From assembly GCA_012519205.1 (NCBI GenBank), contig JAAYQR010000012.1:1-64000 (forward strand): 64,000 bases of DNA, written 5' to 3'. Numbering within the stretch: the first letter of the stretch is position 1; the number at the start of each line of letters is the position of its first letter. Position numbers and translations under genes: made by a program. The DNA comes from Candidatus Epulonipiscium sp. Lineage in GTDB: Bacteria > Bacillota > Clostridia > Lachnospirales > Defluviitaleaceae. Positions 14,131 to 49,121 of the stretch are shown here, piece after piece. The notes under the pieces are model-generated. The model saw only the letters and a program-made list of their open reading frames with translations, was not told the origin of the DNA and ran no database searches.

Positions 14131-14562
14131 TTAGTTAGCTCCTTTTATAGCTTCCTTTAGGGTATGCCATGAAAGAACGGCACATTTTACCCTGGCTGGC
14201 ATATTTGAAATATTTTTAAAGGCTATGGCATCTTCTAGGATTCTTAAATCATCTTCGTTTATAATTTCTTTTTTTATCATAGATATAAAGATATCAGCCA
14301 TATTAATGACTTCCAAGATAGATTTATCCTTAATAATGTCTATCATCATGGAGGTTGAAGCTTGGGAAATAGCACAACCGCTTCCTGTAAATGCTGCCTC
14401 TTTAATTTTATCTTTGTCAAATCTAAGTTCTAGGGTTATATCATCTCCGCAACTGGGATTATGACCCCTCTCGGTACAATCAGCATGGTCTAGCCTTTTT
14501 TTGTTATGACTGCTTTGGCTGTGTTCCATAATCAATTCGGTGTATATTAAATCAAGCTCCAT
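14131..14562 (-). CDS. sufU: SufU-type iron-sulfur assembly protein
   Basis: The 143-residue protein is the Zn-containing sulfur acceptor that takes persulfide from SufS. The three SufU cysteines are present in NPSCGD, GSGCAIS and VKCAVLSW. The ATG at 14562 overlaps the sufS stop, so the two are translationally coupled. This gene order (C-B-D-S-U) differs from Bacillus (C-D-S-U-B). Confidence 0.92.
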   Translation of the reverse strand: MELDLIYTELIMEHSQSSHNKKRLDHADCTERGHNPSCGDDITLELRFDKDKIKEAAFTGSGCAISQASTSMMIDIIKDKSILEVINMADIFISMIKKEIINEDDLRILEDAIAFKNISNMPARVKCAVLSWHTLKEAIKGAN

Positions 14563-15789
14563 ACCTTAACCACTTCCTTACCAGTTTAATACTTTCTATA
14601 AAAATGTCAATTTCTGAGCTGGTATTGTATAAATAAAAACTTATTCTTGAAGTTGCAGACACCTTTAAATATTTCATCAATGGCTGAACACAATGATGTC
14701 CCGCCCTAAGAGCTACTCCATAAGAATCTACTATACTAGCTACATCATGGGGGTGACAGCCCTCAATATTAAAGGAAATTACAGCTCCCCTACTATCCAA
14801 ATCCATAGGACCATATACCTTTACATAGGGTATTTTAGTCATACTTGATAAGGCGTAGGCTGTAAGCTTCCTTTCATGTCTATTTATATTACTAAAACCA
14901 ATTTTATTCAAATAGTTAATGGCCGCTGCCAATCCTATAGCCCCCTCCACATTAGGAGTACCTGCCTCAAGCTTGTGGGGTAGTTCATTAAAGGTTGTTT
15001 CTTGCTCCTCTACATATTCAATCATATCTCCGCCCATAAGAAAGGGAGGCATAATTTCTAAAAGTTCTTTTTTTCCATAGAGCACACCTATTCCCATGGG
15101 ACCAAGCATTTTATGTCCAGAAAACACCAAAAAGTCAGCATCTATATCTATAACATCTGTCTTAATATGAGGGATACTTTGGGCCCCATCAATGACAACT
15201 ACAGCCCCCTTTAAGTGGGCATATTCGGTAATCTCTTTAACAGGATACACAGTTCCTAAGACATTTGACATATGGGCTATGCTCACCAGCCTTGTTTTGC
15301 CAGTAATCTTAGTATACACTTCCTCCATGTTTAAGGAGTAATCTTTATCTAAGTATAAATATTTTAAAATAGCTTTTTTTCTTTAGCTACCTTTTGCCAT
15401 GGAACAATATTACTATGATGTTCCGATATACAAATTACAATTTCATCCCCTTCCCCTATATATTTCATACCATAGGAATGTGCGATAAGGTTAAGGGCTT
15501 CCGTAGCATTTTTTGTAAATATTATTTCCTTAGGGGATGAGGCATTAACAAATTCCCTAACTATGTTTCTAGACTCTTCGTATAACTTTGTGGACATAAC
15601 TCCAAGATAATGGGCCCCCCTATTAGGATTACCATTAAAATTATTATAATAATCTCTCATTTTGTCCAGTACCATCTTAGGCTTATGGGTTGTGGCGCCA
15701 TTATCCAAATATATTAAGGGTTTTCCGTTAACTTCTTGATTAAGAGTCGCAAAATCTCTGCGTATTTTCCTTATATCAAATTTTTCCAT
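14552..15789 (-). pseudogene. sufS: Cysteine desulfurase SufS; single-base frame break as sequenced
   Basis: Two adjacent frames give one class II cysteine desulfurase. The N-terminal part (from ATG 15789 with GGGAGG upstream) contains the YLDNGATTHKP start typical of SufS. The second part has FSGHKMLGP with the PLP-binding Lys and RAGHHCVQPLM with the catalytic Cys. The break is in the 7-T run at 15374-15380 (plus strand); eight bases would restore about 412 residues, normal for the family. As this is normally essential in Firmicutes that rely on Suf, a sequencing error is the likely cause. It overlaps sufD and sufU. Confidence 0.88.
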
Positions 15790-16894
15790 GGAGCAACCTC
15801 CCATGTATTTCTTTATCTATAATTTTTCTTAAGTGTTCTAGAGGAATTTTATCAATAATAGGATTAAAGGAGGCTTGTACTGCAATCTTCATAGCTTCGC
15901 CTTTGCTAAAACCACGGCTCATCATATAAAAAAGTTTTTCATTATCTACCTTTCCTATGCTAGCTGCATGCTGACCCCGAACATCATCTTCGGAACAAAG
16001 AAGTAGGGGTATAGATGTTGTTTTCACATTTTTATCAAATACTAGGACATATTCTTCTTCACAGCCTACTGCTTTACTAGCTCCAGTCTCAAAATCAATA
16101 GTACCTTTAAATACCTTTTTTGCCCTATCTTTAAGGGCTCCTCTTGTTTGGATATTACTTATACTTCTTTTTCCCCTGTGGTTCATGAGATAGTTTAAGT
16201 CTATTTCTCTCTTCCCGTCACCTAGATAAATAGAATCTATATATGCCTCGCCATTATCTTTGAGATTGTTAGTATAATTGGTTACAGCCTTTTTACTTCC
16301 TATTTCTACTTGTATATAATTTACCCTTGCCCCATAATCGATATAGGCAATATTCGAATCAAAATGATAAGACTTATCATTCATTCTTTGTATCTTAATA
16401 AGAGTTATATCGGAGCCTTCTTTTGCAAAAATTTTTGTTATACCGTTATGAAGGGTCTTCGTATAATCTAATGTAGAATAATCAATAATGATTGTCAATT
16501 TAGAGTCTTTCCCTGCTATTATAATGTTTTTATCTACAACTAGATTGTTTTCATTATCCAATTCATACTCTAATCTAATGATATCTTTTGCTTTTATACC
16601 TTCGGGAACATATGCAAATATTCCCGTATTATAGGAGTTTTCCCCATGCTCTGCTAGTTCTTTAGATACTCCATATTCTAATTCATTCCCAATTAAGCTT
16701 CCTGTATAATTTTTTATATCTATGGCATTGTTAATTTTTTTAATGATTATATCCTTATTAATGGTTTCCCTGAGATACTCCTTCACATAGGGACTCTTTT
16801 CCATATTAATGTTTTCGTTTAGATTAAACTCATTTACATTAAGCCACCTATAGGTAGCAACAGGGAGTTTATTCATTGCTTTAGTAATTTCCAA
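15776..16894 (-). CDS. sufD: SufD, Fe-S scaffold complex subunit
   Basis: The 372-residue protein belongs to the SufB/SufD family and has the conserved C-terminal block DVRGQHAASIGKVDNEKLFYMMSRGFSKGEA. In SufBC2D, SufD pairs with SufB to hold the nascent cluster and iron entry site. It lies 11 nt after sufB and overlaps sufS. The N-terminal region is more diverged than the C-terminal beta-helix end, as is usual for SufD. Confidence 0.9.
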   Translation of the reverse strand: MEITKAMNKLPVATYRWLNVNEFNLNENINMEKSPYVKEYLRETINKDIIIKKINNAIDIKNYTGSLIGNELEYGVSKELAEHGENSYNTGIFAYVPEGIKAKDIIRLEYELDNENNLVVDKNIIIAGKDSKLTIIIDYSTLDYTKTLHNGITKIFAKEGSDITLIKIQRMNDKSYHFDSNIAYIDYGARVNYIQVEIGSKKAVTNYTNNLKDNGEAYIDSIYLGDGKREIDLNYLMNHRGKRSISNIQTRGALKDRAKKVFKGTIDFETGASKAVGCEEEYVLVFDKNVKTTSIPLLLCSEDDVRGQHAASIGKVDNEKLFYMMSRGFSKGEAMKIAVQASFNPIIDKIPLEHLRKIIDKEIHGRLLHGKI

Positions 16895-16905
16895 TATTCT
16901 CCCCC

Positions 16906-18289
16906 CTATCCTATACTTCCTTCAAGTTCTAGTTTAATTAAATTGTTCATTTCCACTGCATATTCTAAGGGTAATTCTTTAGCTATTGGTTCCACAAAAC
17001 CTCTAACTATCATACCTCTGGCCTCAACTTCATCTACTCCCCTACTCATTAAATAAAAAATGGCCTCATCGCTAATACGTCCTATTTTAGCCTCATGACC
17101 TATATCTACCTCATCATTATTTATATCCAATACCGGTATAGTATCCGATTTAGACTTATTATCTAACATGAGGGATTCACAAGATATGGTAGCTTTTGAA
17201 TGAAAAGCATTGGGGGCAATTTTCAAAGTTCCTCTATAGATTGCACTGCCTCCATCCTTAGAGATGGATTTAGAATTAATTGTCGATGTAGTATAAGGGG
17301 CAGCATGAATTATCTTAGCTCCCGTATCTAAGTTTTGTCCCTCTCCTGCAAAGGTTACCCCTGTAAATTCTGCCCTTGCTCTTTCACCTTTTAAAATGCT
17401 CATGGGGTACAGCATCGAAACCCTAGAACCAAAAGAACCAGATACCCATTCAATTATTCCATCTTTTTCTACAATGGCCCTTTTTGTATTTAGGTTATAC
17501 ATATTTTTTGACCAATTCTCAATAGTACTATATCTTAATCTTGCATTTTCTTTAACAAAAAGTTCTACGCATCCAGCATGTAAGTTATTTACAGAATACT
17601 TTGGAGCTGAACAGCCTTCTATAAAGTGAAGAAATGCTCCCTCTTCAACTATTATTAAAGTATGTTCAAATTGCCCTGCCCCCGGGCATTCAACCTAAAA
17701 TAGGATTGTAAGGGTATCTCCACACTTATCCCCTTAGGTATATACACAAAAGACCCCCCGACCAAACAGCACCGTGTAGAGCTGCAAATTTATGATCATT
17801 TGGTGGTACACATTTCATAAAATATTTTTTTACCACATCTTCGTATTCCCTGACTGCACTTTCCATATCCGTATATATTACACCTTGTTTTACCAATTCC
17901 TCTTTAATGCTATGATAAACCACCTCTGAATCATATTGGGCACCTACCCCGGCTAAAGATGCATGTTCTGCCTTTGGTATCCCAAGGGAAGTAAAAGTAT
18001 TCTTTATATCCTCCGGTACATCCTCCCAAGAATATTTCATATCCGTATTGGGCCTTACATAGGTTACTATATTCTCTATATCCAGCCCGGATATATCTGG
18101 TCCCCAGTTAGGGATATCCATATTGTTATATATTTCTAAAGATTTTAGACGAAAATTAGTCATCCAATCCGGTTCATTTTTTTCTCTTGAAATTTGTGTT
18201 ACTATTTCTTTTGTTAGGCCCTTGTCGGTTTTAAAACTATAGGTAAATTTATTTTTTTTATCATATAGCCCTCTATTTATATCCTCCAC
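16906..18289 (-). pseudogene. sufB: SufB, Fe-S scaffold; two single-base frame breaks as sequenced
   Basis: A GTG at 18289 behind GGAAGTGA opens the N-terminal part (VTYVRPNTDMKYSWEDVP). After HGAVWSGG the frame is lost at the 6-C run 17754-17759 (7 expected), and again at the 5-C run 17679-17683 (6 expected). Adding one base to each gives continuous SufB sequence including FVYIPKGISVEIPLQ, NARGAGQFEHTLI and FIEGCSAP with the scaffold Cys, in total about 461 residues. The product is the main scaffold on which SufC ATPase activity drives cluster assembly. Decay is unlikely in an otherwise intact suf run. Confidence 0.88.
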
Positions 18290-18304
18290 TTTATCACTTC
18301 CAAT

Positions 18305-19051
18305 CTACATATGACATCTAAATTTATCAAAACCGTCTTTTTCTATTTCTTCAATCAGGTTTAAATTACCGGTTTTTATGATTTTCCCATCGATTAATAT
18401 ATGAACAAAATCGGGTTCTAGATACTCTAGTATGCTACTGTGATGGGTTATAATTATAACAGCATTTTCAGGGTTCATATATTGCTTTACCCCTGTTGCG
18501 ACTACTCTAACAGCATCTACATCAAGACCTGAATCTGTTTCATCTAATATTGCTAATTTCGGCTCTAATATCAACATTTGGAGAATTTCATTTTTCTTTT
18601 TTTCCCCTCCTGAAAAACCTTCATTTAAATATCTAAGGGAATATTCCTGCTGTATCCCTAGAAGTTCCATTTTTTCTTTTAGCATTTCTCTAAAGGCAAA
18701 AATTTTAATGGGTTCACCAGTCTTTGCCATTTTTGCTGAACGGAGGAAACTTTCTACTGTAATCCCTGGTATCTCTTCAGGATACTGAAAAGACAAAAAC
18801 ATTCCAAGTCTTGCCCTTTCATCAACTTTTAAGTCATTAACTGGCTGATTTAAAAAATTGATTAGTCCCTTGGTGATTGCATATTTAGGATGCCCCATAA
18901 GAATATTTGCCAAGGTAGATTTTCCTGCCCCATTAGGTCCCATGATTACATGGACCTCTCCCTTTTCTATTTCTAAATTAAGTCCCTTTAGAATATCATT
19001 TTCTCCAATTTTTGCATGCAAATTATTTATTGTTAATAGTTTATTTGACAT
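18305..19051 (-). CDS. sufC: SufC, Fe-S assembly ATPase
   Basis: The 248-residue ABC-type ATPase contains Walker A GPNGAGKST, the signature FSGGEKKKNEILQ, Walker B LAILDETDSGLD and the switch His in THHSS. SufC dimerises in the SufBC2D complex and drives cluster assembly. The ATG at 19051 was taken over the one 6 nt earlier because AAGGAG is then 8 nt away. It is first of the suf run and divergent from the DUF2249 gene. Confidence 0.95.
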   Translation of the reverse strand: MSNKLLTINNLHAKIGENDILKGLNLEIEKGEVHVIMGPNGAGKSTLANILMGHPKYAITKGLINFLNQPVNDLKVDERARLGMFLSFQYPEEIPGITVESFLRSAKMAKTGEPIKIFAFREMLKEKMELLGIQQEYSLRYLNEGFSGGEKKKNEILQMLILEPKLAILDETDSGLDVDAVRVVATGVKQYMNPENAVIIITHHSSILEYLEPDFVHILIDGKIIKTGNLNLIEEIEKDGFDKFRCHM

Positions 19052-19112
19052 ATTCATAACTCCTTATAATTTATCCTAATGTTTTTACTTTAAATAATAT
19101 ACATTTTTTTAC

Positions 19113-19128
19113 TGTGATTACAGTCACG
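19113..19128. promoter_or_regulatory. CRP/FNR-family binding site, TGTGA-N6-TCACG
   Basis: TGTGA (19113-19117), TTACAG, TCACG (19124-19128) matches the CRP/HcpR-type consensus with one mismatch. Its centre, 19120.5, lies 41.5 bp upstream of the start predicted from the TATTAT hexamer at 19150-19155, the class II activator position for the DUF2249 gene. It also lies about 62-78 bp upstream of sufC, so it could influence both. HcpR, a nitrosative-stress regulator in Clostridia, is one candidate protein. Confidence 0.55.
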
Positions 19129-19149
19129 GTTTTATTACATAATTAAGGT

Positions 19150-19155
19150 TATTAT
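19150..19155 (+). promoter_or_regulatory. Predicted -10 of the DUF2249 gene
   Basis: TATTAT, one mismatch from consensus, has no good -35 at 17 nt. A weak -35 region is what an activator-dependent promoter would show, and the CRP/FNR-type site occupies the activator position. Confidence 0.4.
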
Positions 19156-19224
19156 AGAAACATATAAAATAACAAAAAGTACATAATAACTAAGAGTTTT
19201 TTAAACTATGAGGAGGATTTTACT

Positions 19225-19458
19225 ATGTCAGAATTTACTGCACAGGTAGATGCAAGAATTTATCCATCAAAGGATAAACATGCTGTTATTTTTGATACCT
19301 TTCATAATCTAAAATCAGGTCAAAAGATGGAATTAATCAACGATCACGACCCTAAACCCCTTCATTATCAAATGCTTGCAGAATACGAAAATCAGTTTGA
19401 TTGGGAATATTTAGAGAAAGGACCTGAAGTTTGGAGGGTTTCTATAAGCAAAAAATAA
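19225..19458 (+). CDS. DUF2249 domain protein
   Basis: The 77-residue cytoplasmic protein (MSEFTAQVDARIYPSKDKH; later LINDHDPKPLHYQM and WEYLEKGPEVWRVSI) matches DUF2249, a small alpha/beta family related to TusA-like folds. Its members often occur with hemerythrin-like, nitric-oxide or denitrification genes; the molecular function is unknown. GAGGAGG lies upstream. It is monocistronic, ends in a perfect palindrome and appears to be under a CRP/FNR-family activator, which suits a redox or NO role. That last point is inference. Confidence 0.85.
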   Translation: MSEFTAQVDARIYPSKDKHAVIFDTFHNLKSGQKMELINDHDPKPLHYQMLAEYENQFDWEYLEKGPEVWRVSISKK

Positions 19459-19487
19459 GTCCATGGTTAACCATGGACTTATTTTAT
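19454..19487. terminator. Bidirectional terminator between DUF2249 gene and trkH
   Basis: A perfect palindrome with 15-bp arms (AATAAGTCCATGGTT and complement) covers 19454-19483. It overlaps the DUF2249 stop and abuts the convergent trkH end; T-rich bases follow on the plus strand. Confidence 0.75.
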
Positions 19488-47909: not shown

Positions 47910-49121
47910 ATGTATAAACCTCTAGAAATTTCTAAAGACCTTTACTGGGTTGGGGTTCTTGACCCCGATCTTAAGATATTCGATATTATTATGGAAACAA
48001 AGTACGGTACTACATACAATTCGTATTTACTAAAGGGCAGCAAAAAAACCGTTTTATTTGAAACGGTTAAAGATAAATTTGCTGATCAATGTATCGAAAG
48101 AATAAAAAATATCTGTAATCCCGAAGAAATTGACTATATAATTGTTAATCATACGGAGCCGGATCATGCGGGATCCGTTTCCATACTTCTTGATTACTGC
48201 CCCAATGCCACCATAGTGGGGACCGGCCCTGCCCTTAAATTTTTAAAAGAAATAACCAACCGTCCTTTTAATGCCCTCCCAGTATCCGATGGGGATACCC
48301 TAGATATAGGAGATAAGACCATACGTTTTATTATGACCCCCTTCTTACACTGGCCAGATACAATGTATTCTTATATCGAAGAAGATAAAATATTAGTGAC
48401 CTGCGACTCCTTTGGGGCCCACTATTGTGATGAAAGAATATTTAACGACGCTATCGAAAAGGAAAAAGAACCAGAAATATTGGATTCTTATAAATACTAT
48501 TTTGATATGATTATGGGTCCTTTTAAGCCCCATGTTCTTCAGGCTCTTGATAAAATAAAAGGTTTAGAAATTAAGACTATCTGCACGGGTCATGGTTTGG
48601 TTCTTAAAACCGAAATACAAAAATATCTTGATTTGTATAAAAAATGGGCAACAACCACCCAAAGAGAGAAACCTTCTGTTGTTATTCCTTATGTTTCAGC
48701 CTACGGATATACTAAAAAGATGGCCGAAGAAATTAAAAAGGGGGTTAAGGCCGCTGGGGATATTGATGTATTATTATTTGATATGGTATATGAAGATAGT
48801 ACCAAAGTAATGGGAGAAATATCTAATGCTAGGGGTATACTATTTGGCTCTCCTACCATCGTAGGAGATGCCCTTCCTCCTATTTGGAACCTTCTTATTT
48901 CCCTTAACCCTGTAATCCATAAGGGTAAAATGGCCGGGGCCTTCGGTTCTTACGGCTGGAGTGGTGAGGCAGTGTCTAATATAGAAGGCCGCCTAAAACA
49001 ATTAAGACTTAAAATACCTGTGCCGGGGCTTAAGATATCCTTCAATCCCTCGGATACCCAACTTAAACAAGCTTACGAATTTGGAGAAAAGTTCGGCTCG
49101 GCCGTACTAGGAAAGGAATAA
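47910..49121 (+). CDS. fprA: Flavodiiron protein FprA (A-type flavoprotein)
   Basis: The 403-residue protein has a metallo-beta-lactamase-like diiron domain (NHTEPDHAGS with His/Glu/Asp/His ligands, FLHWPDTMYSY, TCDSFGAHYCDE and CTGHGL) and a C-terminal flavodoxin domain (about 257-403, VIPYVSAYGYTKKMAEEI). It reduces O2 to water and/or NO to N2O using electrons from rubredoxin, protecting anaerobes. The next gene is a plausible NADH:rubredoxin reductase, and rubredoxin itself is at 53.8 kb. AAGGAG precedes the ATG. Confidence 0.95.
   Translation: MYKPLEISKDLYWVGVLDPDLKIFDIIMETKYGTTYNSYLLKGSKKTVLFETVKDKFADQCIERIKNICNPEEIDYIIVNHTEPDHAGSVSILLDYCPNATIVGTGPALKFLKEITNRPFNALPVSDGDTLDIGDKTIRFIMTPFLHWPDTMYSYIEEDKILVTCDSFGAHYCDERIFNDAIEKEKEPEILDSYKYYFDMIMGPFKPHVLQALDKIKGLEIKTICTGHGLVLKTEIQKYLDLYKKWATTTQREKPSVVIPYVSAYGYTKKMAEEIKKGVKAAGDIDVLLFDMVYEDSTKVMGEISNARGILFGSPTIVGDALPPIWNLLISLNPVIHKGKMAGAFGSYGWSGEAVSNIEGRLKQLRLKIPVPGLKISFNPSDTQLKQAYEFGEKFGSAVLGKE

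Follow-up and report, generated by a model that had tools for sequence, protein, structure and literature searches.

DUF2249 domains are common, yet no function is known for them, and at the locus studied here the question is what controls one such gene and which response that control points to. The gene (plus strand, 19225–19458 of the window, the whole 64,000-nucleotide stretch of DNA analysed) encodes a 77-residue protein that matches Pfam PF10006 with an E-value of 4.4e-26 and a score of 91 bits against a curated cut-off of 29.5. At its end, a 15-bp hairpin (19452–19485), a strong terminator candidate, lies between the convergent ends of the DUF2249 gene and a trkH-like gene. Upstream, sequence and conservation mark out a CRP/FNR-type operator, TGTGATTACAGTCACG (plus strand, 19113–19128), of the form TGTGA-N6-TCACG. 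A -10 element, TATTAT (plus strand, 19150–19155), read from its sequence and its kept spacing, follows 21 nt 3′ of the operator, and the plus-strand transcription start predicted from it, 7 nt after the -10, falls at 19162. The operator centre, 19120.5, thus sits 41.5 bp 5′ of the predicted start, and a sequence-based ribosome binding site, AGGAGG, is present on the same strand at 19211–19216.

Class II CRP/FNR promoters have their site at -41.5, a good -10 and no -35. The preliminary description had proposed this class from a site at -41.5 and a missing -35, and each element held: the coordinates and the 21-nt gap agree, the letters at 19126–19132, the place of a would-be -35, are ACGGTTT, and a promoter scan called nothing on the plus strand there. 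The operator thus lies at about -41.5 relative to the -10, and a functional -35 is absent. Within the window, 2.8 matches to TGTGA-N6-TCACR with at most one mismatch were expected and 4 rows (2 places) were seen, which is not above chance. We therefore judge the operator significant because of its conservation and not because of motif rarity in the window.

That conservation is clearest close to the host. We searched 96 relatives, host genome included, for DUF2249 and found a match in five: the host genome (G000), three genomes of the same family (G003, G005 and G006) and one of the same order (G010). The family set comprises eight genomes, and operator and 21-nt spacing are kept in all four that carry DUF2249; in G003, G005 and G006, a gap of exactly 21 nt separates TTGTGATTGCAATCACGG from a downstream TATTAT or TATGAT. 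The core pattern (at most one mismatch) occurs once in each of these four and is absent from the remaining four family genomes. The surroundings vary. From operator centre to ATG the distance is 104 nt in the host and 67, 149 and 165 nt in the other three, where DUF2249 is placed elsewhere with different neighbours; in G003 and G006 it adjoins a rubrerythrin-like gene, and suf is absent there. No operator was found before the DUF2249 gene of G010. In G005 (L038, upstream of 1501), a stretch of the DUF2249 leader matches the 3′ portion of a DUF438-type gene at another locus, L122, with 86% identity over 64 nt, which suggests that a DUF438 gene was deleted and its promoter kept and fused to DUF2249.

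A protein-pattern scan widened the comparison to 49 DUF2249 loci, 48 of them with 300 nt of upstream sequence. We defined a composite as the operator core with at most one mismatch plus a -10 located 20–22 nt downstream. It is present in 24 of the 48 loci, with a gap of exactly 21 nt in 23 of the 24, and dinucleotide shuffles of the 48 gave a mean of 0.14 composites and a maximum of 2. The reverse strand held four, unsurprising for a palindromic operator. Carriers include Clostridium species (among them C. carboxidivorans and C. beijerinckii), Anaeromonas, Herbinix, Mobilisporobacter, a Haloplasmataceae MAG and Cytobacillus. Since the 48 include near-duplicates (L142/L145, L156/L159 and L152/L154) and L121 and family genome G005 are one record, the 24 carriers are not 24 independent events.

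As a control, we examined the other ORFs of at least 100 aa in the same loci, of which 13 of 177 carry the composite. These 13 do not look random: four are DUF438-like genes 5′ of DUF2249 (L122, L124, L128 and L169), one is a DUF438-like gene near DUF2249 (L160), two are flavodoxin-like and one is ric-like. In L122, L124, L128 and L169, a site-less DUF2249 gene follows the DUF438 gene that bears the site and can therefore share its promoter. Such operons account for some, but not all, of the 24 loci that lack the composite; the order-level relative G010 is among those they do not explain. Among 22 of these 24 (L168 included, L158 and L163 left out), a search for FNR-type and HcpR2-type sites returned a single relaxed TGTGA-type match each in L138 and L128; L151 and L155 gave weak FNR- or GTAAC-like matches. 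The names ric, FprA, DUF438 and flavodoxin denote N-terminal resemblance in other genomes, apart from the Pfam-scanned cases: ric, DUF1858, DUF438 and FprA of the host, DUF438 of L124 and the regulator of L138. Geometry and conserved spacing across relatives support the reading of 19113–19155 as a class II CRP/FNR-activated promoter, activation itself being predicted from sequence.

On host contig C2, sites with the same 21-nt geometry precede hcp (C2:31857, CGTGATAAATATCACG, Prismane domain), ric followed by DUF1858 and DUF438 (C2:7972, CATGACTCTGGTCACA), fprA (C2:25160, TATGAATACGGTCACA, ODP and Flavodoxin domains) and an ORF divergent from the hcp-linked regulator (C2:43294). By Pfam, ric is ScdA_N plus Hemerythrin, its neighbour is DUF1858, and the DUF438 protein combines DUF438, Hemerythrin and PAS. 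An aldehyde dehydrogenase gene near hcp (Aldedh domain) is preceded by TGTGA-N6-TCACA with a 20-nt gap to TATAAT (C2:36130–36171), and site TGTGATTCTAATCATA with the same 20-nt gap is kept in G003, G005 and G007. The hcp gene follows a site of this geometry in all eight family genomes; the fprA site is kept in G003 and G007, and in G006 with two mismatches by eye. A strict composite search of the eight genomes gave 18 matches, 12 of them at hcp or DUF2249, and seven in the reversed control.

Two further genes touch this set. The divergent ORF (about 220 aa; G000 C2:42576–43268, L079:5693–6352) begins MSAFLGPIHYWLYNK in relatives and has its own class II site; it matches no Pfam family over the cut-off, and at L167:4476–5108 DUF438 and DUF2249 have a similar ORF close by. 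A second FprA-like flavodiiron gene is located in the window itself (47925–49001), 39% identical to the C2 copy, and no CRP/FNR composite was seen before it in our scan.

The preliminary description had linked DUF2249 to NO and pointed to hcp and fprA as places where the motif might recur. It is found before both at the same 21-nt spacing, and the geometry of the DUF2249 site is common to hcp, ric-DUF1858-DUF438 and fprA. Because the same operator geometry recurs in many relatives and before genes of NO removal and Fe-S repair, the DUF2249 gene is very probably part of a nitrosative-stress and Fe-S-repair regulon under class II activation.

What could the protein contribute? A structure model built from 36 sequences (pLDDT 87.8) is predicted to adopt a TusA-like fold. 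Structural alignment with VIA-align to E. coli TusA, taken from the IscS-TusA complex (3lvj_C), gave a Z of 9.6 over 73 residues at an rmsd of 2.2, and to the TusA-like part of 8k1r_B a Z of 10.2; the Foldseek E-value for the TusA fold is 0.018. The rest of the fold list (Alba, IF3-C and methyltransferase chains) stayed below a Z of 8, and we took these as common arrangements. Comparison with PDB sequences returned nothing useful (best E 0.89), and the fold comparison alone was informative. The active-site cysteine of the TusA sulfur carrier was not found in the 77-residue protein, which is free of cysteine and therefore unable to carry a persulfide as TusA does. Its conserved patch reads NDHDPxPL. 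The protein may act on IscS or an iron centre.

We then considered which regulator would bind. The preliminary description had made its case depend on a CRP/FNR-family regulator in the genome, and the host encodes four over the Pfam cut-off, two of them with an R-E recognition helix. One is a Cys-rich FNR-like protein (G000 C2:7252–7962) that adjoins ric; the other is an HcpR-like CRP/FNR protein near hcp (G000 C2, about 43.36–44.06 kb). The first has four cysteines among its first 14 residues, spaced differently from those of E. coli FNR, and PF00027 (cyclic-nucleotide-binding) and PF13545 (Crp HTH) were matched for it in L021. Its helix, TRETVSR, fits the R-G3/E-A6 rule as given in the relevant part of PMC1274295.

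Regulator tables for 30 of the 49 DUF2249 loci, picked mostly for carrying the site, point to this Cys-rich protein. A match at E of at most 1e-44 is present in 27 of the 30 genomes, and in 26 of the 30 the match has at least three cysteines within its first 60 frame residues. In L138, L146, L153 and L167 the gene is no more than 3 kb away from DUF2249, and a ric-like start was seen by eye in a neighbour at 11 of the 30 loci. On these sequence grounds, we favour the Cys-rich FNR-like protein beside ric over the HcpR-like one.

The same class II promoter could instead be activated by the HcpR-like candidate near hcp, a reading we regard as possible but rather doubtful. This protein has a comparable helix, TTRETASR; a CRP/FNR gene lies several kb from hcp on the same contig in seven of the eight family genomes (in G002 on another contig); and the Desulfovibrio HcpR motif, wTGTGAnnnnnnTCACAw in the relevant part of PMC1274295, resembles the operator. 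The sites themselves also lean this way. Under the favoured reading the DUF2249 site was expected to group with the ric and fprA sites, and it did not: by family PWM, DUF2249 sites are nearer to the hcp, aldehyde dehydrogenase and divergent-ORF sites (A minus B = -4.1 and -6.4), which counts against the Cys-rich regulator. So does the behaviour of classical FNR, which is inactivated by NO, a difficulty for an FNR-like NO response. Against the HcpR-like protein stands its distribution: it occurs in all family genomes, including the four that lack DUF2249, whereas a clear orthologue (52%) was found in only one of the 30 DUF2249 genomes of the wider set; in the other 29, its matches are at 26–36%, and 26 of those 29 fall at the Cys-rich FNR gene itself. 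Its reading frame is also broken in this assembly; in G003 the frame is open. The frame break lies at an A-run near C2:43470, and further splits affect a P-type ATPase (C2:3275–5985), sufS and sufB (window 14552–15804 and 16906–18289, each divided between reading frames); small indel errors in the assembly are therefore likely.

Two other readings concern the DNA on either side of the operator. The site lies in the divergent gap between DUF2249 and sufC (minus strand, 18305–19057; ABC_tran E 3e-24; beside SufB/D/S/U genes), and the preliminary description held it to be shared with the suf operon. That is true only in this positional sense, and we did not judge sufC part of the unit. A bound regulator could in principle repress or activate suf as well, coupling Fe-S assembly to the NO response: 63 nt separate the operator centre from the sufC start downstream of it, and a minus-strand TATATT/TATTAT lies about 13 nt from the site, so a bound protein could cover a suf -35. 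This suf-side spacing does not fit class II activation, and the operator is retained in three family genomes where suf is absent. Among the eight family genomes the suf operon (window 14131–19057) occurs only in the host; SufB/D were not found in the other seven, nor was a close SufC (best 33%), which makes comparative evidence impossible. We consider shared control improbable and dropped suf as a co-target. Of the preliminary description's reading, the class II promoter and the NO idea are supported, and the suf part is not. That the palindrome might be a chance repeat or a transcription terminator has some basis in the window, where the motif is not above chance and a scan flagged the hairpin as terminator-like for the T's 3′ of it. 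Its spacing to the -10 is conserved across Clostridia, relatives lack the T run, and the palindrome stands between divergent genes; we give this reading virtually no weight.

Taken together, the operator is likely a class II site of a nitrosative, probably also oxidative, damage regulon, with the FNR-like protein beside ric as its likeliest regulator. A dimer activating from -41.5 is what the geometry and the conservation favour, and the co-targets speak for damage by NO or O2 as the inducing signal. In the proposed mechanism, an Fe-S cluster would let the Cys-rich FNR-like protein detect NO or O2. A CRP/FNR-family dimer at -41.5 would stand in for the missing -35 contact and recruit RNA polymerase to transcribe DUF2249, within a damage regulon that in the host would include hcp, ric-DUF1858-DUF438 and fprA. 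The Cys-free DUF2249 protein, with the predicted fold of the IscS partner TusA, would then act in Fe-S or iron-centre repair. More tentatively, and short of what we would expect, the Cys-rich protein could be an Fe-S-based NO sensor and master activator of an Fe-S repair regulon widespread in Clostridia (ric, DUF438, fprA, flavodoxin and DUF2249). DUF2249, among its most conserved outputs, would then work with IscS-like enzymes in Fe-S repair or NO handling, a partnership so far unrecognised.

In anaerobes, the conserved class II promoter would place DUF2249 under common control with hcp, ric and fprA, offering a direct, testable function, repair of nitrosative or Fe-S damage, and two candidate regulators. 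In our searches of open-licence literature, which leaves most subscription journals outside, we found neither a clostridial CRP/FNR regulon with DUF2249 nor the Cys-rich FNR-like candidate, and the only two papers there that name DUF2249 deal with nitrate respiration or denitrification.

CRP/FNR regulons of nitrosative stress are themselves already known, as the relevant part of Rodionov 2005 (PMC1274295) sets out. There, Desulfovibrio HcpR1 recognises TGTGA-N6-TCACA and targets hcp. The host resembles it in its CRP-like motif, in its own hcp gene, which carries the operator as well, and in a CRP/FNR regulator with an R-E recognition helix; it differs in phylum, in its targets DUF2249, ric-DUF1858-DUF438 and fprA, and in a favoured regulator that is encoded beside ric and whose N-terminus is rich in cysteine. 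Clostridial HcpR2 and C. difficile HcpR share with the present system Clostridia, hcp, the CRP/FNR family and nitrosative stress. The HcpR2 consensus given in that part of Rodionov 2005 is GTAACnnnnGTTAC, whereas the operator at 19113–19128 is TGTGA-N6-TCACG; for C. difficile HcpR, the corresponding part of PMC12915319 places a putative site, among differentially expressed genes, only before frdX-hcp. Crp2 of Thermoanaerobacter tengcongensis, a clostridial relative, likewise has a CRP-like site before hcp and a regulator that is not HcpR2; that part of PMC1274295 describes Crp2 as an orthologue of B. subtilis fnr and mentions hcp as the sole target, and this description sets it apart from the system here. 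With class II promoters that have their site at -41.5, the DUF2249 promoter shares its layout, with no difference found, and its activation is predicted. Finally, the protein described here shares its DUF2249 domain with Thermus DrpA and with DUF2249 proteins of haloarchaea, for which the relevant parts of PMC6282519 and PMC11218638 describe induction during nitrate respiration or denitrification. Unlike those proteins of nitrate respirers, the present one is a lone 77-residue protein of Clostridia whose co-targets belong to Fe-S repair and NO.
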